Of a stretch of 64,000 bases of DNA, positions 13,701 to 64,000 are shown piece by piece (within the stretch, counting starts at the first letter, position 1; each line of letters opens with the position of its first letter). The notes beneath the pieces were generated by a model. That model was not told the origin of the DNA. It was given only the letters and a program-made list of their open reading frames with translations, and searched no databases. The position numbers were made by a program, and so were the translations under genes. This DNA comes from Chondrilla cf. caribensis (Eukaryota; Porifera; Demospongiae; Chondrillida; Chondrillidae), in the NCBI GenBank assembly GCA_964020155.1, contig OZ026567.1, forward strand, positions 1,259,693 through 1,323,692. Reading direction: 5' to 3'.

Positions 13701-14455
13701 TATTCTTGTACTCTGTAGAGAGCTTTATTATTTATAAAGGATTTAAATTAATGAAGAAGGTCACTTAATATGAAGGGTCTTCAAAACTGTTGTGGTGGAA
13801 CTCCACCACATAATACTTTGTGGTATGTAGTTGTCCACTAGTGCATGCCATTCATCAAATTTACCAATAGTGGAATATTCACACTAGTCCAGTGTATTAG
13901 CAGTATTGATGTACTAATAATATATACATACTGCAAACAAGCAAGAAAACATTTTCTATAGTATACCTTATCTTTATCTGGAAAGTGCTGTTTGCTTTCA
14001 GATTCTTTGGACTTCTTCTCTTTTGTTTTGAATATCGACTTGATGCCCTATCCAGAACAAATGGGCACAATGTATTTCATTGTAATGAAGATTTGACTTC
14101 CCCACACATGGATGTGCTTGCTTACCTTGAACACCTTTGGCTTCTTTTCTCCTACAATTTCATTTATTAGATGTTCATGAGCTTGAGCATCAACAACAGT
14201 TCTCTTTTGAGAATGACCTATCTCAATGGATATCTCCAATGTCCATATGAAGGCCTCATAGGTTGAATGCTTTCGGATTAGTTCCAATAACCGTTCCATT
14301 GCATCCACAGGTTTACGTTGTGCAATTTCTTCCAATTCTCTTCCTTGTTCTTCACTGTACAAGTGGGTTTCAGCAGCTGCCTGATTTAAAAGATCATATT
14401 TGACAAAACTGCAAAGGAGTCTTTTCTTTTTGACCAATGACTTCAGGGGGTCCAT
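7705..14455 (-). CDS. CARD-2 gene copy A: CARD-like domain plus long coiled coil, about 834 aa
   Basis: Seven exons: 14126-14455, 13967-14047, 12535-12699, 11906-12007, 11487-11573, 11401-11421 and 7705-9423. All lengths are multiples of three, splice sites are GT..AG and no stop interrupts the join. Exon one starts MDPLKSLVKKKR and encodes a helical death-fold domain (LLNQAAAETHLYSEEQGREL, then AMERLLELIRKHSTYEAFIW). The linker exons carry the conserved block DPRGICKKIPEAIHG and a short RS-rich piece. A 21-nt microexon gives YLAILSE. The 573-codon terminal exon is almost entirely coiled coil after a short conserved head (RTASMTSMDFAMGETSVRIE) and ends KHPTPYYSKDS. The plan resembles CARD9/CARD11 scaffolds, but homology to that family is not shown. 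The third exon found in copies B and C is missing here. The intron before the coiled coil holds a MITE. Confidence 0.75.
9424..10873. other. intron of copy A, no exon seen
   Basis: It runs from the acceptor of the coiled-coil exon towards the microexon. It is AT-rich with stretches such as GGAACGAAACGAAAC. A segment near 10330-10460 is shared with introns of copies B and C. No coding potential was supported. Confidence 0.5.
10874..11281. mobile_element. 408-bp MITE with ATACCGTATAA termini
   Basis: The ends read ATACCGTATAACCAGAAATA and, in reverse complement, ATACCGTATAAGCGGAAATA. Inner GGCGG/CCACC blocks extend the terminal inverted repeat. It sits in the last intron of CARD-2 copy A, is absent from the same intron of copies B and C, and has no ORF of note. 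Confidence 0.75.
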
Positions 14456-18754: not shown

Positions 18755-21700
18755 CTACAAATCTTTCGAAAAGTTAGGGATTGGATTTTCCTGTAGAGCG
18801 CGTTTTCTTTTCAGAGCACTAGCTTCAAACTCTCCACGAACTTCATTTATCTTTGCAAACAGCTCCTCTTCTTTCCTCTGTAGTTGATAAACTTCCATTA
18901 ACCATTCTGCATCAATGCGTACCTTCCTTGCAAATTCCTCAAATTTTTTCCCCCAGGATTCTTGCATGTCCATGACTCGCCGCTCCAAGTTTTCAAGGCT
19001 TGCAATGTATGTGTGGTCTGTTGTAGCTTGATTATCCTCTACTGCTCTGCCACTTTCGTGTGCCTGACTCAGTGTTTGCACAGCATCGTATTGTTTCTCA
19101 ACCTGTCTTTTAAGCGTGTTCATATCTTCTTCCATGCTTTCAATTTTCTCGTTAACTTTGTCGATTTTCAACATCCCTCTACCCGTTTCTTCCAGTTTTA
19201 TATGGAGTTTATCCCATTCAATTAGATCATCTTCATTGCCAGGAAGCTTCTGATGAATTGATTTGATTGACTGATTCTGATTCATTAGTTCCCCATCCAT
19301 TGTCTTCTGTCTCGTTCCCATTTGTTCAATCTGCTCTTGTGACTGTCCAAGCCTTTCCTTCAGCTCATCAATCTCCCTCTCTTGCTTATCAATTAGCAGT
19401 CTCAATTCCCGAGACACACCCTCGATCTCTTTTCTACTGGACGTTTTGGTTTGCATTGTCGCAGATTGTCTGCTGACCCTGTCTGTTTCTTCTTTCATGC
19501 CTTTCAGACGACTGTCGTACTGAGCCAGTTTATTCTCAGCTGCCTCCAAATCAGATTGTAACAAACCATTGGTATGCTTAAGTTCTTCCATATCTTTCTG
19601 GAACTTTTGATTGTCGGTTTCTGAGGCCTTTATTTTGTCATGCAGTACTTCCACGTCACTCTGTATGTGCTGAATATGTACTTTTATCTGCTCCTGTATG
19701 CATGCCTCAAGCTTTGCTTGCTCCACTACCTGTGTCTGTCGTTCTGAGTCACTACTCCTCGGTTGTACTTGTAGCTTTGCTACATCGACTCGAAGGTTTG
19801 TTTGCTCCTTTGCGTGCCTATCAATTGTTTTTTGTAAAGCAGTTACTTGTTGTTGGAGCTCTACTTGCTTCTTTTCGTATGCATCAAAGGAGGCCTGTCT
19901 AACTTGTAATACTTCTAATTTTTCTTGAAGTTTTTCTTCCTGTATTTTCATTTTCTCTTTCTCCTTCTCCATTTCCTGGTGTTTGGCCTGCAAACCTCTC
20001 AGCTCTTCTTGGAATCTTACACCCTCCTTATTACCACTGGATTCGAGAGCTGTTAATTTGTCTCTCATAATTCCAATGGAGTCTCGCAGTCTTTCGCGAT
20101 CTGTTCTATTCACGTCTTGATCCTTCTCGACTTGTTTTTCTAATCTGCTGGCAACCCCTTCCAATTGCTTAACTTGCACAATGAGTGACGAGATATGTTG
20201 CTTTTGGTCTTGGAATTCTCTCTGCAAGTTTTCAATATTACTATCCGCTTTGCCCATACCATAATCTAGTGAAGCTGTGGAAGGTGCTCGTTGCAGTCCT
20301 GTTCCAGTGTTGACATTCACGTTTACTGAATTTTCATTCACATTCTTCACATTTTGATCAAATGGCATAGGCTGGTTACCTGAAAAAACACCGGGTTGTT
20401 TACCCTAATAAATACAAAATAGTACACGTTATGATAATTTGATTATGAAATTTATATATAATAATTGATTAGTTAAACACAATTAGCTATGCTTAAAGTG
20501 CCCACAGTCATCTCTTGCCATTTGGTACCAGTGTATCCACACCCAATTAGGAATTTGGTATACTAAGGTGAGTGTAGCAGTTACTGTATATGTTAGAACT
20601 GTTAACGAAACAATGTAGGGAAGACCAGATTTCCCGCCAGAAGACTAGTGCATAAACATGGCTCTAGCTTTCATGTTTTAATTTTTTGTCCTCTCAAAAT
20701 GTCTAGGTACTCTGACTGACACCAATGTATATGCATTGCTGTGAACATTTTCAAGCCAGATTTCGGGTGCACGTACGTGGTTGTTGAAGTAGACAACCTT
20801 TCTCCCGCTGTATTTGTTCTATACATTTGTCTTTCTTTTAATTTAGAAGACATCCACTCTTTAAAAAGACTATTAGCCGTTATATTATGTATGTGTTTTT
20901 TTTTATTTCAAACCAGTAAGTTCAGTTGGTAGCCATTTTCATTGTGTACGTATGCTAATCAAATTTCTGTAATCCCATTAGGAATTTTCGTATAACCAGG
21001 ATAACATTCACTTTTGTTGTCCTTTATTTCCTTTTATCCAGAACGTATAACTTTCTTATCATATAAAGTTACATATGTAGACAATATATGAAGCCTATAT
21101 GGAAAGAATCAATTTAATCGGATGAACTTTCCCAATGTAAACTTTCAGGGGTCACGCCAAAAATCTGGCTGGGAATGTTTAAGGGACAAAGTGTGCATGC
21201 CCACAGCCATCTGGTAACTTCTCTTGCTCTTATTCTATATGTATCATGAGGCACAATCACATCTGTGTTCTTTAAGACATTTTGAGAAAATTAATATTAA
21301 AACGAGATTGGACTGAATGCAACAGAAATTTTTATTTTGAGACATTTAAAGCAACAATATTGGGAAGTTAATGTGGGCTAGTTTAATGCCTCGATCATCT
21401 ATGGAATAGAGATGATTCAGGCTCTCGTATACTATGCCCTGGAACATGCACAATGCAGGGAATTGATACCTCACTCAAAATAGCCAGGTACTTTGACTAA
21501 ACCAATGTGAATTTATTAGTATGCATATTGTTGCAAAATTAAAGGAATACCTGATTTTTTCCAAAGCTTGGGGGTCGAGGTAGTGATCTCCGTTTGTATT
21601 CTGACCCACTCACAGATGATATAGTAACTCTTCTTCTTCGATTTCTTGGATCCTGTTTGTGATTCACATAATTGGAGTAGCACATAACGTATGATCAAAG

Positions 21701-24523
21701 TACTATAAATTGTACATACACACAAAGTGACGTTTCATTCAAAAGTCTGGAACAGGCATGCATTTATGCATTTACCATGAGTGTGGCACCCCCAACATTA
21801 CATGGTACATGATAGATGGTGGGTACATGTAGTTATGTTGCAATAGTTATGCTCAATAACAGATAATAGGTAGTCATGTTAGGTCTGGGGACTCCTTATT
21901 CGGCAAAATACCCTAAACTACTATGGATCTCATGCCTCTTCTATAATGCATTTTGTAATACATAAAATATACGAACCTGTTCACATCTAGTATCAGATAT
22001 TCTGCCGAATTCACTAGGATCACACAAGGATTGAGAGTTTTTTGGAACAGGTTGACCTCCATAATTGTAGTGACTATCCTGTCAAGTACAGCACACATAT
22101 TATTATTGTGATAATAAAAAGTATCAGTTTGTATGCAGTAATAATAATAATATTATGGATGAGTATGTGTATGCATGGGTGCGGAGTGACAACCAATTTA
22201 CCATGTATAATTTTATTATGTGTTATTGTTAATATATATATTATATACATATAAGTGTAATCAAAGTAAATTAATTGACACACTTGTCTCATCTGTTCTC
22301 CATGGATGGTTCCTGATATTCTCCTACAAATGCCTTTGGGATCAAATATTGCAGATACAGTTTCTTCTGGGATTGGGTGATGTCCACTGTGGGTGCTATC
22401 AAGCAAGTCACTTGCATCCATTAGAGGATCATTATCTTGGTCCTATGTGTGGTACAGTATGTACAATGAAACACTGATGCTACAGGCCTTTTGAAACATG
22501 TCAAATTCAAAGATATTTACGGCACTAGGAAACCTATTAAAAAGTGTTAAACACAGAAGGCTAAGTCATGGAGAAATCTAATGACTTTATGTGAAGAAGG
22601 GTTCGAAATGACTAAAACTACAGTGCATTAGTTGAACTATCACTGGAAGATCTGACGAGGTTTAAAGACTATAGACCGTGCTCTGGAAGACCAATACATT
22701 TGTGCAATAAACCTTCCCTACCAACAGAGCGTACAGTCACGTCTTGACTGTAAGCCTCCTATATTCTCTTTTATCATGAAGACCACAAGTGTTCACTTGT
22801 GTGTGGGAATTGTAAGATGAGGACAGTCATTCAACTGATGTACAGGGTGCACCACATTGATGAGCTCAAATGAGAGCGAAACAGCTGTCTGTGGTTCTGG
22901 ATTCAGATGACTGGGAGGTAATCACTGGTGGCCATCAAAATCGGACTTCGGTCTCCCAGCTGATAGAGACTTCAGTATATTTTCAGCTGGTTTGGCGTAA
23001 ATCCAGTGATATAATTAATTTTATTGAAAATTGTGTTTATTGCATTATGTGATTATTTTGAGGCCCTAACCTGTCAGGTAACACTAACTCTTTGGGAAGG
23101 ACATGTTAACCTGTGGGGTCACATGATGTTTGTGTTAAGAGAGCCTTTACACTCAATAAGATCATTCTCCCTTTATGCAGGTAATTCAAATTGGATAGTT
23201 ATCTTTGAGTGATCCTGCAGCTCTCTCATAATATGGCCCCCTATACTTCCCCCTCAATATAAAGTCCCAATTTTAAATTTGTGGTGAGATTGGGTCTGAC
23301 TATGCCAAACTAGATGAACCGCACAAATCAGTATGCATAGAAATATTTCTATTTTGAGCACATCCTTGCATAATCATTTATACGTAAACTAAGTTGCATT
23401 GTACACTGTTCGTAATTACAACTTGCATTCTGAATTGAGAGCAGTGTTCATGCAACATGTATCAATGGTCAATTAGGCAGTACATGCGGTGTTCAGGATA
23501 TTCATGTACTCTGTAGAGAGCTCTATTATTTATGAAGAAGATCACTTATGGTGGGTCTTCAAATTGGACAAAGTGTTGCGGTGGAACTCCACCAATGACA
23601 CTTTATTGGTATTTGTCCACTACGTAGTGCATGCCATACACTGATCATAGTGGAAAATTTACATTAATCCAGTGTATTAACAGTGTGTGTTTTACCATTT
23701 CAGATTCTTCAGATTTTTGAAATTCAGTTTTTTGTCTGGGTGCATACTTCCTAGGTTCTTGTGGGAAAACCATCACCTATAGAATACATTTGTATACAGC
23801 ATAATAATATCGGTATTAGAATCAGACTCTGAGAGACAATATTACAACAATATATATATTAAATTGTACTTGACTAGCAAACATTGTCTATGGGCTACAT
23901 ACCATATTCTTATCTAAAAAGTGCTGTTTGCTTTCAGATTCTTTGGACTTCTTCTCTTTTGATTTGAATAGGTTATGGACCTTGATGCCCTGTCCAGAAC
24001 AAACCAGTGCAATGTATTTCATTGTAAAGAAGATCAAAATTCCCCACACAGTCACATGGGTGTACCTACTTACCTTGAACCCTTTTGGTTTCTTTTCTCC
24101 TGCATTCTCATTTATTGGTTGTTCATGAGCTGGAGCATCAACAACAGTTGTACGTTGAGAATGTCCTATGTCAATTGATCTCTTCAATATCAATCCTTTT
24201 GGCTTCTTTTCTTCAGAACCTACAATCTCATTTATTAGTTGTTCATGAGCTTGAGCATCAACAACAGTACTATGTTGAGAATGACCTATCTCAATGGATC
24301 TCTCCAATGCCTGTATGAAGGCCTCATAGGTTGAATGCAATCGGATTAGTTCCAATAACCTTTCTACTGCAGCCACAGGATTATCTCGGGCAAGTTCTTC
24401 CAATTCTCTTCCTTGTTCTTCACTGTACAGGTTGGCTTCAGCAGCTGCCTGATTCAAAAGATTGTACTTGAGAAAGCTGGTAAAGAGCCTCTTCTTTTTG
24501 ACCAATGACTTTAGGGGGTCCAT
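18755..24523 (-). CDS. CARD-2 gene copy B: CARD-like domain plus coiled coil, about 883 aa
   Basis: Eight exons: 24074-24523, 23903-23989, 23696-23776, 22284-22442, 21977-22078, 21551-21652, 21470-21490 and 18755-20404. Every length divides by three and the join is open. The N-terminus MDPLKSLVKKKRLFTSFLKY leads into the CARD-like fold (AVERLLELIRLHSTYEAFIQ). The CARD exon is 120 nt longer than in the other copies because its last 40 codons (SIEIGHSQ...HEQLINE) are repeated in tandem. The linker block is DPKGICRRISGTIHG and the microexon is 21 nt. The terminal exon opens GKQPGVFSGNQPMPFDQ, keeps the head RAPSTASLDYGMGKADSNIE, is coiled coil throughout and ends NPIPNFSKDL. It is the most diverged coiled coil of the set. 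A filament-forming signalling scaffold is inferred from layout only. Confidence 0.75.
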
Positions 24524-28398: not shown

Positions 28399-29250
28399 TC
28401 ACACTTCAGCATCTGATACCTGAGCATGATGAAAGATAACATAACATAATGTCATTTGATAATCCGCATATTGTACTCCATATACGTATATACTCTGTCT
28501 GAAAAGTTGTTTTTCTATGTAATTATTTTCACTTATTTTCCCAAGTAATGAAATTACATCTAGCGCTATGCAATATGACCCTTGAATTCCCATCATCTGC
28601 CTGTATTATAATAATATGTAATATTATGTCCTTTTCAGGAAGTGAGTTTGCATGTTCCCACGATCACACACAGTTGACATTTCTTGACCCCATGCATTAT
28701 ATATGTACTTACTTGAATATGACGACTTTTAGAGAGTTCCTTGGCCATTTTGTCAGCCAATTTTCCTTTACGAAGTTTCCTCACAATATGTATGAAGTAG
28801 TCCCAAGTGTGAGGACAGGTCTCAACCTCGGTGTCATTCAGCCACGTATCGAGGAGTGCCACAAGGCAGTCAGCTGGGTCTGGGTTGGTTTTCTCAATAC
28901 TAGCCCAATTTGTAGTTAGATCCAAATAACCGGCTATTTGGAATCCGGAATCTTGGAGGTCATTGATGTACGGCATGAGATCTTTCAACTTGAGCTTGTA
29001 TTTAGATCGTGTTCGAGTTTGGTACATAGGCGAGGGACTGAGAGAATCACTGTGTCCAACAGGTCTCGACCGTTCTACTGCAAGAGTATGATTGAAATAG
29101 AGAATATCTAATGCTTTTGCCAATTACTATATGATCATGTATATACAAACCTAATAGTATAGTACATTGATTATTATTTAATGTACTAATGTGTGTGTAT
29201 ATGTGTGTGTATGTGTGTGTGTGTGTTTGTGTGTGTTTGTGTGTGTTTGT

Positions 29251-29321
<71 letters not shown>

Positions 29322-31801
29322 ACACATGCAGGTGTGTTCACAATATTATAATAATATGTACAGTATGTAGGTACAGTATAAGAAGTGGGTCCATGTGAGC
29401 TGATACACAAGGTATAATAATGCATGCATTAGCATTGCTTGACATGTGGGCAGCAATGTGTAAATATTATGACCTTCAGTGGAAGTTGCTTGTATGTATG
29501 TACTCACTCTCTGATCTGTACTCATAGGCTGTGCAGAGGAATGGCATGGCTTTGTCTCTGACCCCTTCAATCTGCAGTACAACCTTAGTGGGGACTCCTG
29601 TTCTCCTCACCTCCTTGCTGTATGTTGTCTCACATGAAATGAAAGGTGGATAGGCTGCTGTTTTAACTGCTCTTTCCATGTCTTTAGCATTTCTTATCCC
29701 GTGTGATTTGTACTCTACATCTTTGCAGTGAACCTACAGTACCCAATGTGTAGTCATACATTAACACTAATGCATTGGGGATTACAGAAATACTGTTACC
29801 TACCACTTCATTTGCATTCAGCCAAGCCCTCCAGCCATTCCCTTGGTTTTCACTCAAAGTTCCCTTGATGGTACTGTCTTCAAATGTAAACAGTACATAG
29901 TTTGAGTCCGGAGTGGTACCTCGGTACTTTTCCAGAATCTAACGGACCAATAGATTACAATTACAGTTTCTGTATAACCTCAAGTTAAACACACCTGCAA
30001 CCAAGCTTGTGATGCATATGTGATCATCACACGTAAATTGGCACCCTTCTTGAAATGTCTCTCAAGACCTGTGGCATAGTAGCGCAATCCCTCCTTGTAG
30101 GAAGCTTCTTCATCAAATACGGCCCCAAACAGACTACAGTGCCCGTCGATAGAAATGGCACCATATCTATCGTTGAACGCTTCCCCCTCGACAAGTTGAA
30201 ATGGGTATGATTTCTCTTCTTCCAATTTGTGAGGAGCAATGACCCATTTCAAGTTCTTCTCCCCATCTCTACCCACCCAGTGAGGTAGATGAAGAACAAC
30301 TGGTTTAGTTGCATGTTCCTGCTCAAAGTAGACATACACCACCATGCTTCCCAACTGGTAGCCATTGGGGATACTGTATGAGCCATAAGCAATCACCCCA
30401 TATCTAATATTCAATCTGTCACACACAGCTGTGTTGACAGAATTTTTTGCTACCTCCATCATGATGATGGTGTGACCCTCATCATCTATCTTACTTCCTA
30501 AGGCTTGTGGCTGTAAAGGAAAAAGACCACCTTCTTGCCCAACAGTGAGTGTGCAGATGCCAAATGGGAACCAGCAAAGTTGATTGAGCTTCGTTTCATG
30601 TGCTGTGAGAATCAAAAATAGATTCAGATTGTAACTGAACAAGCATTTATTGTATATTGAGTTATATTATGTCATAAAGGTTTGTGCTATGATGTCGAAT
30701 GAAGTTTGATGATTAATGAACAATTGTATTATACCAGTGAGAGAGTATACTGTATACATAATAAATTTTCACTTCATGTAATGTTTGCAACTTTTACCAT
30801 ACAAATCAGCATTTCTCTGCTTTGCTTTGCTTATAAAAGCTAAACATGTTTTTTTTTCCAATGTACGTTTAGTGAACTAAAATTAATGATACAGATACAA
30901 TGAATTGAAAGACGGAATGTGAAAATGCTGTTGCTGTTACACACATATGTATGTTATTGCTCAATAGCTGTCATAATATTTAGTGGTTAAGACATGGGCA
31001 TGAGGGCATTATGCCCGAGTTCCATGTCTTAACCATTATAGCATCCGTTGCTAATGCTTTATACTGTTGCTAGCGCTTTATACATTATAAAATTGCTGTA
31101 TAACAGTACTGTTTCTATGGTAACGGATGCTATATGCTATTATAGAACCAACCTAGTGTATCGGAGTTTGTTATATGTACAGTATAATCATTGGTATCTT
31201 CACTTGAGGTCTGCATAATGAGTACAATTATATATGTATCAAACAATGTACAATTAGTTGAAGCAATGAACAAATTCACTATTGTCACCATTTTCCACTC
31301 ACTGATGTAGTCTCCATGCTTTCCTCAGATCTGGAGGTCGTAGCTGTAGTCTCTACATCCAGTTGCATGTCCAAACTGACATAATTTTTGGATGATGTCT
31401 TTGTCTGTGAATGACATGTTGATAGGAATAACTATAAATAATTGAAAAAGTAAAATTGGAAATGCATGTATTATTATAGGAAGACTTACTAGTGATGATT
31501 CTTGTAGTTCTGTCACGGTAACTTTCAATTCCTCGATTTGTTTCGTTAACTCGTCATATTCAGCTGTGACTGATTTTTTCAACTCATCTTGACTTTCCTG
31601 GAGTCTTTCCATTCCTTTCTTGAAACTTTGTAGCTGATCTAGTATGATTGATTCAAAGTTGGAGAACCTGCTAAACAAAGCAGCAATATCCTCCAGTTGT
31701 TGCTCCCTGGGGATTCCTCTTACCGCTCTACCCGTGTCATCTTCCACATGGTCTTGGATGTCTGCGAGACTTGGCGTGCTGCTGCCTAATCCTGTATCCA
31801 T
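28399..31801 (-). CDS. 3' half of the chimeric gene: coiled coil, ZU5-like region, Death domain (608 codons from its internal Met)
   Basis: Exons 31490-31831, 31303-31404, 31153-31210, 29995-30602, 29804-29938, 29508-29733, 28713-29077 and 28399-28419. From the Met at 31801 the phases chain to 608 codons plus stop. In order they give a coiled coil (MERLQESQDELKKSVTAEYD), a Thr/Ser-rich spacer and a beta-rich region with VVLHLPHWVG, the ZU5-like signature of UNC5/PIDD/ankyrin proteins. A module with GNGWRAWLNANEV follows, then a Death domain (LKDLMPYINDLQDSGFQIAG, PADCLVALLDTWLND, HTWDYFIHIVRKLRKGKLAD). The last exon is 21 nt, encodes VSDAEV and is conserved in the second copy. It can be a separate transcript or the 3' part of the gene starting at 38191. 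An apoptosis or innate-signalling adaptor role is inferred. Confidence 0.8.
29192..29316. repeat. (GT)n microsatellite in the Death-domain gene intron
   Basis: Interrupted then pure GT repeat in the intron between the 29.5 kb exon and the Death-domain exon. The same intron of the second gene copy also carries one (60019-60214). Confidence 0.95.
30984..31131. repeat. nested hairpins in an intron
   Basis: GGTTAAGACATGG at 30984-30996 pairs perfectly with 31022-31034, with GGGCAT/ATGCCC inside. Just downstream AGCATCCGTT (31040-31049) pairs with AACGGATGCT (31122-31131). The copy-2 intron lacks it, so it is probably a small foldback insertion. Confidence 0.65.
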
Positions 31802-31924
31802 ACTATTTGCAACAGTTATTGTGTAGCTTTCCTAGGGCAGGGATGATCCAGGTTCACTTATACTGAGTAATTAACATCAATAATACTATGCATTGGAACC
31901 ATGCACAATGAAGGGAGTTGTTAC

Positions 31925-34900
31925 CTCACTCAAAAATAGCCAGGTACTCTAAATGAAAATGTTGATACATATTGGTGCAGATTTAAAATTAATGAATACC
32001 TGATTCTTTCCACGACTATATCTCGGATGTATTTTTGAAGATCCCCATTTATAATCTGAAATATTCATGGATGATGATCAATCTCTTAAATCCTGTTATA
32101 GTGATTCATAAAATTAAAGTATATATCACATCAGTTATGATTAAAAGTACAATAAATTGTAACATACACACACAGAGTACATATTATCATTAGTCCTAAG
32201 TGTACAATAGTGACAAGAACCACAAGAGCCACACATGCTCTTAGCAGTGGCATCGGAATAGGGGCAACCAGGGGGACTTTGGACGCCCCACGTTCTTAGT
32301 ACAGCACAAGTAGTTTTTATTTTTATTCCTATATTATTTTCACTCCAACTTCCAGTATGTAGAGCTCGATATATTATTATATGATGTACCTGTTACTTTC
32401 TTTGGAGTTTGTATTATTTATTTAATTTTATTTTGTCTGAGAGGTTGTCTGTTTATGTACTGTATAGCAGGAAATTTTCGCAGTACAAAATTTTCGCAAA
32501 TGGCTCCAAAAATAAAATTCATGAGTAAAATGTTGCTGTCTATAGTCATGTGATAGAATGCCTAAATCGCAGGTAAAATTTTCGCGGATGATGAATTACT
32601 TAATTGTTTATTTTAATCCACAGAGAAAAGTAATTACATAACCAAAACATTACTAATGTATATCCTGAATGGCATTATTTGTCTCTTGGACAGTGCTGAC
32701 AGAGAGAATAACTATCAAAACATTCAGATTTTCATCTATTCAACCTTTGTTTATTGTAACGAAAATGTCTTCTGCACCATTCCTACGTTATTTTGACTTC
32801 ATGTGCATAGACCTTGGGTTTGACAACCACATCTGCGTCCAGCCTCAAACAACAGTGTGGCCCAACTTTCTAAAATTTAATACTTTCGACACCTCTGCTT
32901 ACATATATGCAACTATGTATGGTACATGACACAAAGTATCAAAGATTCTATACACCGATTTATGATACAAATGGCATCCAAAGTGGCCGTAGGATAGCTA
33001 CTTAATTTATTGGTTCAAAGGACCAAAGTGTGTAATATCCAAGCCTTACACATAGCTAATTGAAAAAATTGGTACTGCAAAATTTGATAATCATGATGTG
33101 GTAGTGTGTATTGTTCCAGTTGTTCTGTGTATAACAAGTTGTTCTTGTATCACATCATTATTGTAACTATTTTGGGTTACTTTGGAAGTGATTCTTTGTT
33201 TTGGTGTCAGTTGTCTTTATGTAGAGAATTATTAAGTTGTCAGTTGTTTCTATCAGGGTGTCATCTAAGTAGCTACCAGGATACTATGTGAGAGTGCTTG
33301 CTTTAAAATGTTTTTTAAAATCCATGTATGTCAATTGACTAAAACAATGTAAACTAAGTAGTATGCAAATACAATTGAATACCTGATATTTGCCGAAGCT
33401 ATGATGTTGACGTAGTGATCTCTGTCTGTGATCTGATTTACTTGTGGATGATACTCGATCTCTCGATTTCTTCTATAGTGATTCCCGAATAATGAAGTAG
33501 CACTTAACTTATATACGATTCAAACTATCATAAATTGTACGTACGTGTACCTAGTGTACTTATCATTGGTTCCAGGTATACATGTACAATAGTGATGAGA
33601 GCCACACTTATGTACATGCAACTATGCATGGTACACAACATAACATAAAGTGATGAAAATGAAACACACAAAACATTTTGAATGACAAATATTTTTAACA
33701 TGTGCAATATGTTCTAAGACGAATATTTAATTAGAATGTAGTTATTCTTCAAACGTTTGTGTTTCTGGTGAAAAATTAGACTGTGAACATTATTAAGTGA
33801 GATTTCTGGCCCGCACAGTTGTTGAAATAGACAACATTCTTTCCACCGTATTTGTTCTATAAAGTAGTCTTTCGTTTCATTTTGAAGACATTTGTTCTTT
33901 AGAAAGACTATTAACTGTTATGTCCATGTTTGTTTTCCTTTCCAAACCGGTAAGTTTGCTCAACAGCCATTTTCATTTGATCTATTTTAATTTTTTGACC
34001 TATAATACCAATTTTCGTCACTAAGCCTGGCGAATGTGTGAAAATTATACAAGGGAAATATTTACTGGTGAAAATATCCTAGTCTATGGTACATTACATA
34101 CCTGCTCATATATAGTATCAGATGGGGTCCTGACACAACCCCAGGATTGGGAGTCCATATTTCCAATGGAGTCTCGTAGTCTTTTGCGATCTGTTCCATT
34201 CACATCGTGATCCTTCTTGACTTGTTCTTCTACTCTGCTAGCAACCACTTCCAACTGGCTAACTTTCTCAGTGAGTTTTGAAATATGTTTCTTTTGGTCT
34301 TGGAAGTTTTCAATATTACTATCGGCTTTGCCCATACCATAATTCAGTGAAGTTGTGGAAGGTGTTCGTTGCAGTCGTGTTCCAGTCTCAACAAATAGCG
34401 TGGGGTGGTTATTTGAATAAACACCGGAATGTTTACCCTAATAAATACAAAATAGTACACATTATGATAATTTGATTATGAAATTTATATATTAAAATTA
34501 ATACATTGATTAAACAAAATTAGCAGTGCTTCAAGTGCCCACAGTCATCATTTGGTACCAGTGCATCCACATTCAATTAGGAATTTAAGATAAGTGCCTA
34601 ATGTTTATCCTCGAGGCAATTCAATACCCTATATCTCCCTATTGGTGTGATTCACAAGAAAATATTACTTCTTCAACGGCAAATTTTGCGAATGCAGTTG
34701 TGATAGTTCTGGAAGAATTGTGATTATCATGTGACACTTGTGACCCACCCCCAAAGTAGGTAATTCCATTTTATACCTAAGTTTAAAAGCACACGTTATT
34801 GGTTTAATTCCGCATTCAATGCTGACCTGTCCTACCTGTGTACCTCATGCACTGAAAAAGCCAGGTACTTGCCTACTACTACCTGCCTGACCATTGTCTA

Positions 34901-37900
34901 GAGGGCTGCTACTCCTATGTATACCCAATATACCGGGGTATATTTCTGACCACTTTACTGATATACTTCGTTTTCTAACTAAAAGGAAGTTATCAATGAT
35001 TATTATCGCCACACTTGTCACTTAACACTAGACAATCAATGCACCAGCAATTCTGATACACATTGTCACACACACTAAAGACCACACCAATTCAATTGAA
35101 GGAATACAAAATCAGTACACAAAACTATCGTGTATTCAGAAGGGCAGCGAATTGAGAATGATTTTAAGATAAATCAATCAGTCATTTAGGTCGAAGACTT
35201 TGTGGCTAGGCTGGATAATAGTTACTCAGCCCATTTTGGTTTCTCTTGGTGGTGTTTTGGGAACATAAGGGTTTGTCCACTCTTCTTAGTTGGTAAGCTC
35301 AAAGAAACGAGCACTGTCATCATTATCGCTACATCTCTTCTTGCTAGGTATTAGCGAGTCGGTCATTGTTAACTTGCCTCTGATATAGGATTCAGTGTTG
35401 TTTTCAGCTCCTAAAAAATCTTTTCTCACCAAAATTTTCATCTGCATTCATAATGCTAACATACTTTCAAATGTTTTGACAGGATACATATTTGTCATAC
35501 CCTGCCTTTGTTGGGTATAAGTACATAAATCTATCAGCTGTAGATTAGAGTGTAATCAATATAAATTAATTGACATACTTGTCTCATCTGTCCTCCATGG
35601 ATGGTTCCTGGTATTCTCCTACAAATGCCTCCAGGATCATATAGTGCAGAGGCTTCTTCTGGGATTGGGTGATGTCCACTGTGGGTACTATCAAGCAAGT
35701 CACTTGCATCCATTAGAGGATCATCATCTTGGTCCTATGTGTAGTACAGTATGTATAGTGAAATGCTGATGCTACAGGCATTTTGATACATGTCAACTTC
35801 AAGGATATGTACAGCGCTAGTAGATCCATTGAAAAGTGTTTAACACTGAAGGCTAGAAGGGAAGGCTGAAGAAGGGTTTGGAATGACTGAAAAATACAGA
35901 GCATTAGTTGAACTACCACTGGAAGATCTGATGAGGATTAAAGGCTAGACCGTACTCGAGAAGACCAATACATATCAATGCTATGTATTTTGACAAAGCC
36001 AACATAGAGATGCCGGTTTGCTTAAAAATGTGCCTTTACATTGCATTATGTAATATTTTGAGGCCCCAACCTGTCAATCAACACTAACACTTTGGGAAGG
36101 ACATGTCAACTTATGGGGTCACATGGTGTTTGATTTATGGATGTCTTTATGCATAATAAGGTTATTCCCTTTGTGGAGATACGTAATTCAAATGGGACAG
36201 TTTAATATGGTTGATCGTTGAGGCTTAATGATAATCTGACTCCCTTTATGTAAATGATTGCATATCATTATGCTGCAACAATTATTCTACCTCACACATA
36301 CGTGCTAGAGGTTTAGTGATCGGTTGTGTCTTTCTGTGGTCACAAAGGTCATGCACTGGCCAGATCTTAAGATGTAGAATAAACAATATGCATTGTTATA
36401 CCCACTGCCCATAGTAATGGGGTCATTGGGGTCACCGGTGAACGAGTTCACTTGAATGCATGGTCTAGTATAGGCAGCTTTGATGGAAATTGTGAAACCC
36501 TTTGCTTTTATGCCATCTCCTGCAATTATATAGTTGAACTTCTGGCTTTCTTGAAGGAACACAACTTGCCAACAACAGGAAATGGGGTCGAACTAGTTGG
36601 AAGGATAGCAATTTTTTAAAACTAAGAATCTGTCAAGTACACAATGTCTATATGCAAAGGTATATTTGAACCTGGCCATTATTTTTATTTATTTTTTAAA
36701 TGGTCGCTACCATGGCTCCTCAATTTTAAATTTGTAGTGAGATTGGGTCTGACTATGCCAAACTAGATGTACCAAACAAATCAGTATGCATGGAATTTTG
36801 AGTACATCTTTGCACAATCATTTATACATAGCTAAACCTAGTTGCCTTGTACACTGTTCATAATCACAACTTGCCTTCTGACTTGAGAGCAGTGTTCATG
36901 CTACATGTATCAATGGTCAATTAGGTAGAACATGCGATGTTCAGGGTATTCATGTATTTTACAGAGAGTTCTATATATTATTTATAAAGAATTTGACGAA
37001 GAAGGTCAATTATAGGGTCTTCAAATTGGGCAGAGTTGTGGTGGAACCCCACCAATAATACTTAGTAGTCAAAGGTGTAGGAGGCATTTAGAAAGTGGGG
37101 AGGCCACACTATCCTCTGAGGCTGGACGCAAATGTGGTTGTCAAACCCAAGGTCTTTGCACGTGAAGTCAAATAACGTAGGAATGGGCAGAAGACATTTG
37201 TGTTACGAGAAACTGAATGGCCAGCAACTCTATAAACGGAGGTTGAATAGATGAATATCTGAACGTTTTGATAGTTATTCTTTCTGTCAGCGCTGTCCAA
37301 GAGACAAATAAGGCCATGTTGGATATAAATAGTAAGGTTTTGGTTATGTAATTACTTTTCTCTGTGGATTACAATGATTCACCCCAGTTGCCCCTATTCC
37401 GACACCACTGGTAGTAATTATCCGCTATGTATAGTTCATGTCATTCATCAAATTCACTGATAGTGGAATATTTATATTAGTCCAGTGTATTAGCAGTGTG
37501 TATTTTACCATTTCTTCTTCAGATGCTTGAAATTCAAGTTTTTGTCTTGGTGCATTCTTCCTAGCTTCTTGTGGGATAATCTTCTCCTAGAAAACATATG
37601 TATAGTATAATATCATTATTGGAATCAGAGAGACAATATACAACAATAATATTATATACTTGTAGCTGCATCATACTTGACTAGTACAATACATTTTGCA
37701 TAGAATACCTTATCATTACCTTATGTCTTTTACTTTCCGGTTCTTTGGACTTCTTCTCCCTTGATTTGAATGGGTTTGAGACCTTGATGCCCTGTCCAGA
37801 ACAAACCAGTAACCTTTGTAATGAAGATCAAACTTCCCCACACATGGATGTACTTGCTTACCTTGAACCTCTTTGGCTTCTTTTCTCCTGCAATCTCATT

Positions 37901-38191
37901 TATTAGCTGTTCATGAGCTTGAGCATCAACAATAGTTCTCTGTTGAGAATAACCTATCTCGATGGATCTCTCCAATGCCTGTATGAAGGCCTCATAGGTC
38001 GAATGCAATCGGATTATTTCCAATAACCTTTCTATTGCAACCACAGGTTCATCTTGTGCGAGTTCTTCCAATTCTCTTCCTTGTTCTTCACTGTACAAGT
38101 TGGTTTCAACAGCTGCCTGATTCAAAAGATCATATTTGAGAAAGCTGGCGAAGAGCCTCTTCTTTTTGACCAATGACTTTAGGGGGTCCAT
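31925..38191 (-). CDS. 5' half of the chimeric gene: CARD-like domain, linker, truncated coiled-coil head, joined to the 3' ZU5/Death half
   Basis: Exons 37862-38191, 37720-37791, 37509-37586, 35579-35734, 34102-34437, 33383-33472, 32000-32055 and 31925-31946. The CARD exon matches CARD-2 copies (MDPLKSLVKKKRLFASFLKY). The 34.1 kb exon is a fusion: it opens like the coiled-coil exon (GKHSGVYSNNHP, then NYGMGKADSNIE) but after RKRLRDSIGNM switches to the tail of a linker exon (DSQSWGCVRTPSDTIYEQ) with that exon's donor. The next exon is RS-rich (RQRSLRQHHSFGKYQ). Exons of 56 and 22 nt, relatives of the usual RS-rich exon and 21-nt microexon, sum to 78 nt and are read in another frame. All phases then join the exon at 31490-31831. 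With the 3' half the total is 2997 nt, 998 codons plus stop. Expression as one transcript is not proven. Confidence 0.6.
32243..32935. repeat. dispersed repeat, copy 1 of an inverted pair
   Basis: It starts CAGTGGCATCGGAATAGGGG and ends near TTTCTAAAATTTAATAC. It is the reverse complement of 37082-37405, which lacks the middle 330 bp. That middle contains AAAATTTTCGC-type MITE ends (about 32467-32590), so a nested insertion explains the difference. Confidence 0.65.
36305..36562 (-). other. conserved ORF-like segment in CARD-2 introns
   Basis: The minus strand reads MFLQESQKFNYIIAGDGIKA and FTISIKAAYTRPCIQVNSFT over 85 codons. The same segment occurs at 48180-48395 with small indels that break the frame. 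It is absent from copies A and B. It may be a captured exon or an element fragment. No family was recognised. Confidence 0.25.
37082..37405. repeat. dispersed repeat, copy 2 of an inverted pair
   Basis: Reverse-complement match to 32243-32935, ending GTTGCCCCTATTCCGACACC. It lies in the intron between the 35.6 kb and 37.5 kb exons of the chimeric gene. Together the pair could form a long hairpin in the pre-mRNA. Confidence 0.65.
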
Positions 38192-42216: not shown

Positions 42217-42239
42217 GTTTACTAGTACACACAATTGCA

Positions 42240-43384: not shown

Positions 43385-45151
43385 CTATGAATCTATTGAA
43401 TGATAAGGAGTTGGATGCTTCTTCTGTAGAGCCCGTTTTCTTTTCAGAGCTTCGAATCCTTCATTTATCATTGCCCTTAGTTTCTCTTCTTCCCTCTCTA
43501 CTTCCTCATCTATTGCCTCTATCCAATCCGCATCATTGCGTACCTTCCTTTCAAATTCCTCAAACCTTTTCTCCCAGGAAGTTTGCATATGTGTGACTCG
43601 CTGCTTAAGGTTTTCAAGGCTTGCACTGTATGTGTGGACTGTTGTAGCTTGATCATCTTCTGCTGATTTCTTATCCTGGTCTTTCTGAATGATTTTTTTC
43701 ACTGCATCCTTTTGTTCTTTAACCTGTCTTCTCAGCTCATCCACGTCTTGTTTGGTGGCTCCGTTTAGTTCTTCCAAGGTTTCGAGCTTCTCGGTGATTT
43801 CATTGATTTTTCCCATCTCTCTGCCAGCATCTTCCATCTTTTTATGGAGTTCATCCCATTCAGTTGGACCATCTTTATTGCCACGAAGCTTCAGATGAAT
43901 CTGTCCAATAGATCGACTATTGTCCTGTATTTCCCCATCCATTCTCTTCTGCCTCTTCCCCATTTGTTCAATCTGCTCTTGTGACTGTGCAATTTGCTTT
44001 TTAAGCCTTTTCTCAAGGTCATCGATCTCCCTCTTTTGCTCATCAGTTAGCAGTCTTTTTTCCTGAGACACATACTTATCCTCTTCTCGACGTGACGTTT
44101 CGGCTTGCATTGTCGCAGATTGTCTGTTCATCTGGTCTATCTCCTCTTTCATGCCTTTCAGAAGGCTGTGATACTGAGCCAGTGTAGTCTGCGCTACCTT
44201 CACATCAGAACGTAACAAAGCATTTGTACGTTTGAGCTCTTCGATTTCTTCCCAGGAGTTTTGATGTTTGGCTTCTGAGGCCTGCATTTTGCCATGTAGT
44301 TCTTTCACATTGCTCTGTGTGTACTCCAGATTGACTTTCTGTTGCTCTACTCGTGCATCTAGGTTTACTTGGTCCAATTTTATATCTGCCACTGCCTTTT
44401 CATGCTTTGGCTCTGGCTGTGGTTCCAAGTGACTGCCCTTCAATTTTTCTTGCAGTCCTGCTACTAAATCTCGAAGGCTGGCTTGTTCTTCAACATATGC
44501 ATCCATCGTGTTCTGTAGAGCTTTGGAAACTTTTATTTGCTCCTCTGTGCGTTCAAGGCTTTTGACTTCATTTCTTCTTAAAGTGGTTAGTTCTTCATGA
44601 AGTTCTTGTTGCTTCTTCTCATATGATTGAACTTTTGCTTGGAGTTTTACTTCCCTTTCTTTTATTTTTTCATTCTCTCTCTCTAATTCTTGGTATTTGG
44701 TCTGCAAACCCATCAACTCTTCCTTTCTTACCACATCCTCCTTATTACCAGTGGCTTCAAGTGCTGTCAATCTTTCTCCCATGCTTACTATTTTTTCCTG
44801 CAGCTTCGCCTGATTAGTGCTACTGACATCTTGATCTTTTTGAATGTGTTTTACATTAGTAGCAACAACGTTCACTTGGCTGACTTTGTCAGTGAGAGAT
44901 TCAATCTTCAATTTTTGGAAATCAATGTCTTTTCGCATGTTTTTAATTCTAACACTGGTTTCACCCATTGCATAATCCATCGAAGTTTTGGAGGCTGTTC
45001 GTGGGAGTCTAGGCCCTGCATCATCCTTATTCCACAAAACAGCCTGGTTATTTGCTGCATATGAAACACCAGGATGTGAACCCTAATGAATGCAGGATAG
45101 TACAATATATTATATATATATATATATAATATATAATAGTATAATAGTAAT

Positions 45152-45193
<42 letters not shown>

Positions 45194-48100
45194 TAGAAAT
45201 GCATGGCATATTCCATAAACTATTAAATACAGTATAGTATCTGATGGGATCTGAAATAAGGGGTATTATTGCATCAACAATCGATTCCGAGATAACCCTA
45301 CGAAGTTAAAACACTTGTACTAATCTACAGAAAGCAGCTTAATTTTTCAGTATAGCTGCTTTGGTTCCGAAGATATATGTGAAAGAATGTTACGTCAAAT
45401 TAAACCATGTTTTCGAGAAAAGGCGATTATATGCTTACTTCTGAACATTCCACATATCTTTGTATAATATGTGACGTCATCTCAGCTACATGATTTATGT
45501 GTTAAATTCCTTTGTGCACATACCCAGCGGTAACCACATAGCTGCTTATCAAATAAGATGGCACATTTCGATAGATAATAATCAGCCATAGCTCCAAAAC
45601 ACAAGGTCAAACAGTTACTGCGCTTTCAGGGAACCTTCTATTTAACATTCAGATTGAATTTTTTGCAGATAAAAATTTGAAACAATTATTACATGTAAAC
45701 ATGCTTTGACTCATATCTCTGTTTACACAACAGCATGATAATACCCCTTTACTCAGATCCTACCACATATAATTTCAAGTAAACTTTCGCAATGTTGTGA
45801 TTGTAGGAGTTTTTTAACTGCCCTCGGCCATCCCGTAACTCCTCTCGCCCCTATTCTATGTTTTATGAGGCACAATTAGGTCTGTGCTCTTTAAAGTATT
45901 TTAGAAAAATATATTAAAACCACTAGTGAATTTTCATTTTTGAGACATTCAAACAGTAATTAATAGGAAGTTGATGTGGGTTGTCTTAATCTTAATACCT
46001 CATCTACGGAATAGGGGTCCTGGCTGACTTATACTGAGTAATCAACATCCTATAATACTTATGAACCTATTGTTGGAGTTCATTCTGCTGAGAGAAAAAA
46101 AGAGAAAAGGGAAGAAACTGGCAGCCGAGGGACCTGAACCCAGGGTGTCTGGCTGAAGCCACCATAACCATTGAGCCACATGGAGGAGATTGTTACCTCA
46201 CTCAAAATAGCCAGGTGCTTTGACTGAACTGCTGTTAATTAATTAGTATACATATTGGTGCAAAATTAAAATGAATACCTGATTTTTTCTAAATTTTTGA
46301 CTTCGAGGTAGTGATCTCCAATTGTAACCTGATATACTCGCAGATGATACTCGATCTCTTGGATCCTGTTTGTGGTTCACAAAAATTAAAGTAACACTCA
46401 ACTTATGATCAAAAGTACGAAAATGTACATACACACAGTGTACACATCATACACAGATCTAGAACAGGCATTAAATTTTATGCATGTGCATGCATGTATG
46501 TAGTGTGGAAACCCTAACATTGCCTGTTACATGATAGATGGTGGGTACATGTAGTCATGTTGCAATAATTGTACCCAATAACATTAGGTAGTCATGCATG
46601 TCAGGTTTGAGGACTCCTTTGGCAAAATACCCTAAAATACTATGGATCTCACACCTCTTCTATAATGCATTTTGTAATACATGACATACGTACCTGCTCA
46701 TCTATATCAGGTAGCCTGCTGAATTCACTAGGATCACACAAGGATTGAGAGTCTTTTGGAACACGTTGACCTCCATAAATGTAGTGACTATCCTGTCAAG
46801 TACGGCACACATATTATTGTGACAATAATACTTGTAGTGGCTATATTTTGCATGTTTCCTATATTTGGTTCTAGTTATGTAATATTATTATTTCCTGTAA
46901 GCATCGTACTTCACTACTTTTCCACGCATGTGTTTGTATACACCCACACAGCTGGTGGTGTGCACCCACTGTACACGTGTTGTGAATATATAATATAGCC
47001 ACGTGTTTTTTGGCAAAGTAATAGTCAACGCATTTTGATTTTCTTGATATGATCGGTTGAATTCGCTGTCATTTCCAGCTCCTAAAGAAATCTTTTCTTA
47101 CCAAAATTTTCATCTGCATTCATAACGCTAAAGTACTTTCGAACATTTTGATGGGGCACATATTATTTACTATAGCCCGTCTTTGCTGGGTAAATGGTGG
47201 ATATACTTGAGTGTCAGGAAGTGATAATCTCGGGCTTCGCCCTCAGTATATTGTTTCCTGACATTCAGGTATATCCGCCATGTACCTAGCAAATGCGGGG
47301 CATAAATAATACATAAATATATCCGCTGTATATTATAGTGTAATCAATGTAAATTAATTGGCATACTTGTCTCATCTGTTCTCCATGGATGGTTTCTGGT
47401 ATTCTCCTACAAATGCCTCTGGGATCATATAGTGAAGAGGTTTCTTCTGGGATTGGGTGATGTCCACTGTGGGTACTATCAGCCATGTCACTTGCATCCC
47501 ATAGATAATCATCATCTTGGACCTATGTGTAGTACAGTATGTATAATGAAACACTGATGGCACAGGCCTTTTGAAGCATGTCAAATTCAAGGATATGTAC
47601 AGTGCTAGGAAACCTATTGTAAAGTGTCAAACATAGAAGGCTAAGCCATGTGGAAATCTAATGACTTTATGTGAAGAAGGGTTCGGAATGACTAAAAATG
47701 CAGAGCATTAGTTGAGCTACCACTGAAAGATCTGACGAGGATTAAAGGATAGACCACGCTCGAGAAGGCCGATACATATCAAAAGAATTTGCTATATATG
47801 TATTTTGGCAAAGCCAACATAGAGATGTTGGTCTGCTTATAAATATGCATTTACATTGCATTATGTAATATTTTGAAGCAAGCCCCAACCTGTCAGTCAA
47901 CACTAACACTTTGGGAAGGACACGTCAACTTATGGGGTCACATGATGTTTGATTTAAGAATGCCTTTACACTTAATAAGGTTATTCCCCTTTGTGGAAAT
48001 ACGTAATTCATTTATTCATTTATTATACAGTTTAGTATGGTTGATCCTGAGGCTTACTGATAATATGACTCTGCTGCGACAATTACTTTACCCCACACAC

Positions 48101-49680
48101 ACGTAAGTGCTAGAGGTAATTTAAAAGTGATCGGTTGTGTCTTTCTGTGGTCACAAAGATCACCGGCCAGTACTCAGGATGTAGAATAGACGATATGCAT
48201 TATTATACCCACTGCCCATAGTAATTGGTTTATTGGGGTCACCGGTGAACGAGTTCACTTGAATGCATGCATGGTCTAGTATATATAGGCAACTTTTATG
48301 GAAATCGTAAAACCCTTTGCTTTTTGCCATCTCCTGGAATTATAGCTGAACTTCTGGCTTTCTTGAAGGAACACAACTTGCAAACGACAGGAAATGGGGT
48401 CAAACTAGTTGAAAGGATGGCAATTTTTTGAAAATGAGAATCTCAAGTACGCAATGTCTACATGCAAAGATATTTGTGAACCTGGCCATTATTCTTAATT
48501 TTATTATTATAAATGATTGCTACCATGACTCCTTCCCTCTCAAAATATAGTCCCAATTTTAAATTTGTGGTGAGATTGGGTCTGACTATACCAAACTAGA
48601 CAAACCACACAAATCAGTACGCATAGAATTTTCAGCACATCTTGGCAAAATCATTTATACATAAACTTATAGTTGCATTGTACACTGTTCGTAATCACAA
48701 CTTGCATTCTGAATTGAGGGCAGTGTTCATGCAACACATATCAATGGTCAATTAGGTAGAACATGTGGTGTTCAGGATATTTATGTTCTCAGAGTTCTAT
48801 TATTTATAAATTTATTTTAATTTTTTGAACAAGGTCACTTATGAAGCTTTTCAAATTGGACAAAGTGTTGTGGTGGAACTCCACCGAAAATACTTACAAG
48901 TAATTGTCCACTATGTAGTTCATGTCATATTCATTGAATTCACTAGTGGAATATACTAATCCAGCGTATTAGCAGTGTGTACTTTACCATTTCAAATTCA
49001 GAATCTGCAGATTCCAGAAATTCAAGTCTTGCTGCATTCTTCCTAGTTTCCTGTGGGTGAATCTTCTCCTAAAAACATGTACAGTATAATATTATTAGTA
49101 TTAGAATCAGAGAAACAATATACAACAATATGTACATGTATATCATATCTGACTACTGGACATTTTGTATGGAATACCTTATCCCTATCTGAATAGTGCT
49201 TTTTGCTTTCAGATTCTTTGGACTTCTTCTCTTTTGATTTGAATGGGTTAGAGACCTTGATACTCTGTCCAGAACAAACCAGTGCAATGTATGTATTTCA
49301 TTGTGATGGAGATTGAACTTCCACACAGTCACATGGATGTACTTGCTTACCTTGAATCCCTTTGGCTTCTTTTCTCCTGGAATCTCATTTATCAGTTGTT
49401 CATGAGCTCGAGCATAAACAACAGTTCTCGGTTGAGCATGACCTATCTCAATGGATCTCTCCAATGTCCGTATAAAGGCCTCATAGGTCGAATGCAATCT
49501 GATTAGTTCCAATAACCTTTCTACTGCAACCACAGGATTATCACGTGCAAGTTCTTCCAATTCTCTTCCTTGTTCTTCACTGTACAAGTTGGTTTCAGCA
49601 GCTGCCTGATTCAAAAGATCATATTTCAGAAAGCTGGTAAAGAGCCTCTTCTTTTTGACCAATGACTTTAGGGGGTCCAT
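43385..49680 (-). CDS. CARD-2 gene copy C: CARD-like domain plus coiled coil, about 852 aa
   Basis: Eight exons: 49351-49680, 49178-49264, 48988-49068, 47367-47522, 46694-46792, 46279-46365, 46197-46217 and 43385-45082. All are multiples of three and open. The CARD exon starts MDPLKSLVKKKRLFTSFLKY and carries LARDNPVVAVERLLELIRLH. The linker motif is DPRGICRRIPETIHGEQMRQ. The microexon encodes HLAILSE. The 566-codon terminal exon is very close to copy A (RTASKTSMDYAMGETSVRIK; VSQEKRLLTDEQKREIDDLE) and ends KHPTPYHSIDS. The similarity suggests a recent duplication or gene conversion between A and C, with B older. The introns carry a tRNA-derived SINE, an inverted-repeat element and a 25-bp-arm palindrome. 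A scaffold function is inferred. Confidence 0.75.
45106..45192. repeat. (AT)n-rich microsatellite
   Basis: Long AT dinucleotide tracts sit just upstream of the coiled-coil exon acceptor of copy C. Confidence 0.9.
45247..45760. mobile_element. 514-bp element with GGATCTGA termini
   Basis: The left end GGATCTGAAATAAGGGGTAT and the right end in reverse complement GGATCTGAGTAAAGGGGTAT form an inverted repeat. It lies in an intron of copy C and is missing from that intron in A and B. No ORF was seen. Confidence 0.6.
46080..46185 (-). mobile_element. tRNA-derived SINE or tRNA pseudogene
   Basis: The minus strand reads TGGCTCAATGGTTATGG (A-box-like) and, about 25 nt on, GGGTTCAGGTCCCTCGGC (B-box-like, near GGTTCGANTCC). 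A pyrimidine-rich tail with TTTT runs follows. It lies in the intron just downstream of the 21-nt microexon of copy C. A functional tRNA is unlikely because the acceptor ends do not pair well. Confidence 0.6.
47196..47279. repeat. 84-bp palindrome with 25-bp arms
   Basis: The left arm 47196-47220 (GGTGGATATACTTGAGTGTC...) and the right arm 47255-47279 pair with three mismatches. GGGCTTCGCCC forms an inner loop stem. The matching intron of the chimeric gene (about 35510) lacks it, so it is a recent insertion. Confidence 0.65.
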
Positions 49681-59298: not shown

Positions 59299-63466
<4,168 letters not shown>

Positions 63467-64000
63467 GTTTCTACTTTACATTTTTAGTTCAAATATCTCA
63501 GATATCACCAGACTTCTTGTATATGAAGAAGAAATGCATACAACCGACGACACCTTGGCAATGGTGATGGGTATCAACTGCCCTATTGGTGGAAGTTTAG
63601 GTTAAACTTAATAGCTATGTCAGTTGCATTGTTTTCTGTCTTTCATACAATTTCGCAGAATTGAAAAAGCAACCGTTTAATTTAATATATTGTTTCATTG
63701 CAACAAGGTCACATGAGTTAAACGTTATGTCATTGTTGATGTAATTCACAAGAATATGGCAATATACTTCTTTAATTAATGGCACATTTTGCAAATGCTA
63801 TTGTGATTCTTCTGGGACAAGCATGATTATCAGGTGAACTGCTTGTAACCTGCCTACAAATTAGGTGATTTAATTGTTTACATAACTTAAAAACCACAAG
63901 GTAATAGATAACTACACAGATGTTGACATGTCATACCTGCGATAACTAGACCTTCTTTCTATTTCCGGTTCCAGAGTAATTATTCCCGAATCCAGTGATT
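63467..64000. other. upstream of ZU5/Death copy 2, no gene seen
   Basis: The 5' flank of the minus-strand gene. A stretch from 63720 (TTCACAAGAATATGGCAATATACTTCTTTAATT) is similar to 34650-34770 of the chimeric gene's intron, so it may once have been CARD-2-type intron sequence. No exon was supported. Confidence 0.4.

Follow-up and report, generated by a model that had tools for sequence, protein, structure and literature searches.

A candidate recombinant gene joining CARD-like, coiled-coil, ZU5-like and Death-like exons in a tandem array of the sponge Chondrilla cf. caribensis

The subject of this analysis is a candidate death-fold gene on the minus strand of contig OZ026567.1 of Chondrilla cf. 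caribensis, at positions 38191-28399 of a 64,000-nucleotide stretch that is referred to here as the window. This locus is named T1, the neighbouring ZU5-like/Death-like copies are named T2 and T3, and the CARD-coiled-coil paralogues A, B and D; T3 and the CARD end of T2 lie beyond the window edge and their coordinates are in window numbering, extended. The contig of the window is C22, while C7, C8, C11, C14 and C17 are other contigs of the same genome. With a probability of about 58%, we consider T1 to be one of three tandem genes with the order CARD-like, coil, ZU5-like, (UPA position) and Death-like, to be itself a recombinant, and to encode what would be a two-ended death-fold scaffold. The exons of T1 join in phase, the layout recurs in T2 and, with lesions at the 3' end, in T3, and the ratio of nonsynonymous to synonymous divergence (dN/dS) is below 1 in the compared blocks.

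The chain of T1 consists of 14 exons (E1-E6 and E8-E15, Table 1) of 2,919 nt in total, corresponding to 972 codons and a stop, with GT-AG borders, compatible phases and no internal stop. In order, these exons encode a CARD-like domain, three linkers, a short coiled coil, a linker, a second coiled coil, two linkers, a ZU5-like domain (203 amino acids), two segments in the UPA position, a Death-like domain and a tiny last exon. A preliminary description of the window had reported CARD, coiled-coil, ZU5 and Death exons in phase at this locus, which our models confirm; its count of 16 exons, 2,997 nt and 998 codons could not be reproduced. Given the local base composition, a random frame of 972 codons would be open with a probability of ~4e-31, a crude figure because the exons were chosen for openness, and therefore dN/dS between the paralogues is the better control. 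Pairwise values are 0.25-0.59 for the CARD exon (all 15 pairs), 0.18-0.27 for the ZU5-like exon, 0.17-0.27 for the UPA-position exons, 0.27 for E9-10 and 0.18-0.19 for the Death-like exon of T1 against T2 or T3.

The same layout is present next door. T2 forms a chain of 12 exons (2,451 nt, 816 amino acids) which is open end to end, and the window ends inside it, 2.2-2.5 kb short of its CARD exon. The ZU5/Death gene at 59.3-63.5 kb, earlier taken to stand alone, is therefore not solitary, since its own CARD exon is found at 66536-66207. T3 (76658-82603), modelled with 11 exons, likewise includes a CARD and repeats the layout. One of these exons (468 nt, 80480-80013) comprises a linker homologous to T2 exon 4 followed by a coil homologous to T1 31831-31490, which connects the two halves with no splice between them. 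CARD exons are thus located upstream of all three ZU5/Death copies of C22, on the same strand. Since T2 and T3 share the layout, and T2-type and T3-type CARDs occur in other assemblies, the polypeptide architecture is probably real and constitutes a recurrent local layout. The new death-fold architecture proposed in the preliminary description is upheld to this extent, while its supposed making, in which a CARD gene was fused to a ZU5/Death gene standing alone, is not supported.

T1 has a different history in its two halves. In BLASTN comparisons, its DNA gives piecewise matches to A, B and D between 38.3 kb and 31,872, while from 31,773 downwards it matches T3. The synonymous divergence (dS) of the T1 CARD exon is 0.15-0.18 against A, B and D, as compared to 0.65 against T2 and 0.75 against T3, while dS of the ZU5-like exon among T1, T2 and T3 is 0.13-0.14. 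Low CARD distances to A, B and D, high ones to T2 and T3, low ZU5-like distances and the change of BLASTN partner lead us to conclude, from sequence comparison, that T1 is a secondary hybrid whose exons 1-6 derive from a neighbouring CARD-coil gene and meet a ZU5/Death 3' half within 31,773-31,872. It had been proposed earlier that the 5' half resembles the flanking CARD genes and the 3' half the ZU5/Death gene at 59.3-63.5 kb, and both likenesses are borne out by the matches and distances; the proposed fusion event is also real, in the form of a 5'-half replacement within a gene that had the layout before, as T2 and T3 carry a CARD. Between T2 and T3, dS is 0.56 in the CARD exon and 0.14 in the ZU5-like exon. 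Along the gene it declines from 0.30-0.53 in the coil to 0.15 in E9-10 (T1/T3), 0.10-0.13 in the UPA position and 0.03-0.08 in the Death-like exon, which suggests conversion or repeated exchange of the 3' halves between copies. A pair of inverted elements (265-290 bp, ~82% identical) at 37087-37375 and 32610-32874 is located in two T1 introns and flanks the rearranged region.

Table 1. Exons of T1, its junction and the related genes in the window
Feature	Position	Strand	Remarks
T1 exon 1: start codon and CARD-like domain	37862..38191	-	
T1 exon 2: linker, CARD-coil type	37720..37791	-	phase 0; matches at 49.2, 23.9, 14.0 kb
T1 exon 3: linker	37509..37586	-	phase 0; matches at 23.7, 49.0 kb
T1 exon 4: linker	35579..35734	-	phase 0; identity 90.5-91.6% to 47.5, 22.4, 12.7 kb
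T1 exon 5: shortened coiled-coil exon, own donor	34102..34437	-	84% over 243 columns to start of coil exon 20404-18755; both open, same frame
T1 exon 6: linker	33383..33472	-	open; homologous to single exons at 11.5, 21.6, 46.3 kb
E7: duplicate of exon 33472-33383 with in-frame TGA	32000..32092	-	must be skipped or spliced otherwise for an open chain
Breakpoint interval: CARD-coil-type sequence gives way to ZU5/Death-type	31773..31872	-	set by the ends of BLASTN alignments with 11.3-11.7 kb and extended 79.7-80.3 kb
T1 exon 7 (E8): coiled coil	31490..31831	-	homologue of T3 exon 80480-80013
T1 exon 8 (E9): linker	31303..31404	-	96% identity to T3
T1 exon 9 (E10): linker	31153..31210	-	87.5-89.7% identity to T2, T3
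T1 exon 10 (E11): ZU5-like domain with GHCS motif	29995..30602	-	DNA 94% identical to T2 and T3
T1 exon 11 (E12): UPA position	29804..29938	-	conserved 3' of ZU5-like exon; no Pfam match
T1 exon 12 (E13): UPA position	29508..29733	-	conserved 3' of ZU5-like exon
T1 exon 13 (E14): Death-like domain	28713..29077	-	
T1 exon 14 (E15): C-terminus and stop	28399..28419	-	final 11 bases kept at 59299-59309 and 76658-76668
T2 paralogue, in-window part	59299..64000	-	CARD exon past the edge at 66536-66207
CARD-coiled-coil paralogue D (type of T1 5' half)	43385..49680	-	
CARD-coiled-coil paralogue B	18755..24523	-	
CARD-coiled-coil paralogue A	7705..14455	-	

The junction of the two halves is weak, because a duplicate exon with good splice sites (E7) carries an in-frame TGA and the acceptor that follows has the lowest score. 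The homologue of the exon from which E7 is duplicated is present once each in the aligned stretches of A, B and D, and inclusion of E7 in T1 would end the protein after 358 residues. Two further junctions also leave T1 open, one using acceptor 31633 (2,721 nt) and the other acceptors 32055 and 31670 (2,814 nt). T1 may therefore undergo alternative splicing, use E7 as a stop exon or be in decay, and the putative single transcript for the whole of T1 is the weakest point of its interpretation. The methionine at 31801, which the preliminary description considered as a possible start of a separate 3' gene, aligns with an isoleucine inside the T2 and T3 chains, which argues against a conserved start at this site, and we rejected it as such.

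The CARD exon of T1 is predicted to adopt the six-helix CARD fold, with CARD9 and CARMA1 among the fold matches. Alignment by hhalign to the Pfam-CARD set of the genome (E 0.0034, probability 10%) and to its Pfam-Death set (E 0.27) was not significant. Eight whole-genome matches to this exon were obtained, all on C22 between 1,265,152 and 1,342,295; one of them is a second piece inside the exon of B and one belongs to another CARD-like type with 29% identity. A second CARD-like exon type (MAWFTGSG...) is also seen between the CARD-coil genes, at 5370-5909, 17661-17921 and 41860-42252, accompanied by alpha/beta-hydrolase exons (Pfam match at 55041-55700; similar open reading frames (ORFs), by eye, at 16674-17123 and 40794-41715), and the unit of the two seems to have been duplicated several times.

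For the 3' domains, Pfam finds neither ZU5 (PF00791, cut-off 21 bits) nor UPA in T1, the latter label being given by position only, and Pfam Death (PF00531) is found in none of T1, T2 and two C8 relatives. Among 19 family members scanned, three match Pfam ZU5 at E <= 1, all below the cut-off; the best of them covers the expected part with 14.7 bits (E 0.037). In a sibling gene on C8, the ZU5-like exon, both UPA-position exons and a Pfam Death domain above cut-off follow in order, so that Pfam Death occupies the slot of the T1 Death-like exon, although BLASTP gave no real alignment between the two. We therefore use only the names ZU5-like and Death-like. The profile check for CARD, ZU5 and Death suggested in the preliminary description thus found Death above cut-off in the C8 slot, ZU5 below threshold in three relatives, and none of the three domains in T1. 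The putative ZU5 and Death labels rest on the pattern, the sub-threshold Pfam matches and the sibling gene, and the profile tests failed.

It has been reported that CARD8 and NLRP1 cut themselves before the serine of an SFS motif while PIDD and Nup98 have HFS, and that the serine is required and the phenylalanine structurally important for autocleavage (PMC3210808). In T1, the HFS/SFS motif with phenylalanine is absent and GHCS is found in its place. The ZU5-like exon has at least 68 matches in the genome, itself included, and for the 30 of these that were examined the residues at the HFS position are HCS (18), HNS (8), HSS (2), HCY (1) and HCN (1); histidine is thus kept in 30/30, serine in 28/30 and phenylalanine in 0/30. 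Similarly, 20 of the 26 database relatives of this exon have GHCSL and one has GHCNQ, while five did not match the pattern used. Since the buried phenylalanine of HFS is a cysteine here, PIDD-type autocleavage is predicted to be weak or absent, and the ZU5-like block would be structural and not self-cutting. A PIDD-like gene of the same genome on C11 keeps HFS twice; at C11:5103218-5105265, LRR-like (leucine-rich repeat) sequence identified by eye and the two HFS motifs are accompanied by a nearby Pfam Death domain (gene at C11:5104681).

Relatives of T1 are found elsewhere in the genome and in databases. The Death-like exon has at least 43 genome matches, itself included. Upstream of its ZU5-like exon, the C8 sibling has coiled-coil-looking ORFs and a different N-terminal ORF, for which searches of Pfam and of PDB sequences gave nothing at E <= 1. 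With exon-sized queries, the protein database yielded 26 relatives for the ZU5-like exon and 12 for the CARD exon, whereas the spliced T1 3' half gave none (0 of 3,180 candidates at E <= 0.001); against PDB sequences, this half had three unrelated matches with E 0.06 or worse. P0027 and P0029 correspond to T1 and A of the window itself. The CARD of D is 98% identical to P0028, that of T2 100% to P0034 and that of T3 92% to P0038, and the near-complete identity in the first two cases suggests that P0028 and P0034 may be further records of D and T2 themselves. In another assembly, P0033 (84% to the T2 CARD) and P0002 (88% to the ZU5-like exon) are on contigs of the same listed size (2,330,177), and P0037 (88% to the T3 CARD) is on a different contig from P0033. 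Canonical Pfam ZU5 and Death exons are present ~80-135 kb from the window (C22:1405835-1458844). A tandem array at C14:833277-1125161 has ZU5-like, T1-type Death-like and Pfam Death exons in that order at at least seven places, and Pfam CARD and Death exons are adjacent on one strand at C7:66908-67984 and C17:1401428-1402941, a RAIDD-like pairing.

Several results weigh against the reading of T1 as one of three scaffold genes. T3 has a TGA between its UPA-position exons and its Death-like domain and, as a second lesion, an exon 10 without an in-phase GT donor; the stop, located just before the Death-like domain (extended 77267-76921), would leave a CARD-ZU5-like protein without Death. In the coil, dN/dS is 0.44-0.70, and for the Death-like exon of T2/T3 it is 0.76, with few changes. 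The splice sites of E7 are good (acceptor 8.2 bits), and the acceptor at 31831 into the T1 3' half is the weakest of 32 (-4.0 bits), as scored leave-one-out with a simple, small matrix from 32 acceptors and 32 donors of three gene models that were partly picked by motifs. Pfam CARD (PF00619) had no match at E <= 1 in the T1 exon or eight paralogous exons scanned, and none of the 52 Foldseek matches of the T1 CARD reached E <= 0.001. The ZU5-like profile had no match in PDB, hhalign gave it a probability of 0.2% against four canonical ZU5 stretches of the same genome, and hmmsearch ranked canonical ZU5 below shuffled decoys. The AlphaFold2 model of the Death-like domain has five helices at low confidence (pLDDT 56); hhalign of this domain was not significant against the Pfam-Death set of the genome (E 0.18) nor, with a better value, against its Pfam-CARD set (E 0.0037, probability 9%), and its profile gave three PDB matches, all MarR regulators (E 0.4-0.52). 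Finally, the role of the protein, probably that of a cytosolic two-ended death-fold scaffold, is one that we wholly infer.

The lesions and the weak junction also fit a different account, in which T1 has split or is in decay: the 5' part would make a 358-residue CARD-coil protein ending at the TGA of E7, the ZU5/Death part would be separate or silent, and T2 would be the only working CARD-ZU5-Death gene. The TGA in a duplicate exon whose splice sites are good, the poor E8 acceptor and the lesions of T3, showing that local copies do acquire them, all favour it. However, the ZU5-like, UPA-position and Death-like exons of T1 are open with low dN/dS against T2, exon 5 remains open in the frame of paralogue B despite length differences, three different open junctions are available and Met 31801 is not kept in T2 or T3, so that we regard this account as rather unlikely.

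It is improbable that CARD and ZU5/Death genes merely alternate in the array, with separate transcription in every copy. The alpha/beta-hydrolase and second CARD-like genes placed between CARD-coil genes, and the greater likeness of the 3' halves than of the 5' halves, would agree with such alternation, but T2 is open end to end, one modelled T3 exon spans both halves and coiled-coil-looking ORFs also precede the ZU5-like exon of the C8 sibling. An assembly error as the source of the hybrid, conceivable because similar tandem copies can cause misjoins, appears very improbable: over 31.87-32.19 kb T1 shares 69-71% identity with A, B and D, and over 31.15-31.77 kb 82% with T3, and as it differs from the present copies on both sides of the break, a misjoin of two of them would not produce it. 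The database entry that matches the T1 CARD at 100% is the protein of the window itself and thus provides no independent check on the assembly.

If T1 is indeed a recombinant scaffold gene, the coil would bring chains together while the ZU5-like/UPA/Death end would stay closed until a signal, similar to UNC5B, in which the ZU5/UPA/Death end is held closed. On release, the N-terminal CARD would seed CARD filaments recruiting a CARD effector such as a caspase, and the Death end would dock a Death-domain partner, so that one chain would do what PIDD and RAIDD do in two. For this, splicing of T1 would have to bypass the TGA exon or enter it at an internal acceptor, as its chain is not open otherwise. 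More tentatively, and as a possibility that we hold short of even odds, a family of CARD-coil-ZU5-like-UPA-Death scaffolds might have arisen as different N-terminal modules, a CARD on C22 and a different one on C8, were repeatedly exchanged onto a coil-ZU5-Death chassis, combining PIDD-type sensor and CARD-type effector ends in one polypeptide without RAIDD-like adaptors, with T1 as a snapshot of such an exchange and its TGA exon regulatory or decaying. It would then follow that a little-studied animal builds signalling proteins by end swaps between tandem death-fold genes, and that one locus combines a 5' and a 3' half of separate histories. In a scaffold of this kind, where CARD and Death are fused naturally, ZU5 may serve as a clamp that does not cut itself, and the need for ZU5 cleavage in death-fold switching would become testable in one protein.

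A CARD-ZU5-Death protein was not named in the titles or abstract openings returned by our literature search, which is not proof of absence, and is not described in the portions available to us of PMC12909245, PMC8195603 and PMC3210808. FIIND and the UPA-ZU5 module have been described in fusion with TRADD-N, with autoproteolysis predicted in such fusions (PMC8195603).

Individual parts of the T1 layout are familiar from known systems. Like T1, PIDD1 (LRR-ZU5-ZU5-UPA-Death) has ZU5 followed by Death at its C-terminus. The PIDDosome gets its CARD output through RAIDD/CRADD (CARD-Death), whereas T1 has the CARD in the same chain, shows no LRR and has GHCS instead of HFS. NLRP1 and CARD8, in which FIIND (ZU5-UPA) precedes a CARD, also unite a ZU5 block and a CARD in one protein; however, the CARD of T1 is N-terminal, its C-terminal domain is Death-like and its motif is without phenylalanine. 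The order of ZU5 and then Death is common to T1, the UNC5 receptors (ZU5-UPA-death domain), MACC1 and the ankyrins, with CARD and coil replacing the receptor, SH3 or ankyrin parts in T1, for which transmembrane segments were not searched. Lastly, T1 shares the N-terminal CARD followed by a coiled coil with CARD9 and CARD11, but its coil is short and it ends in ZU5-like and Death-like domains instead of their C-terminal parts.

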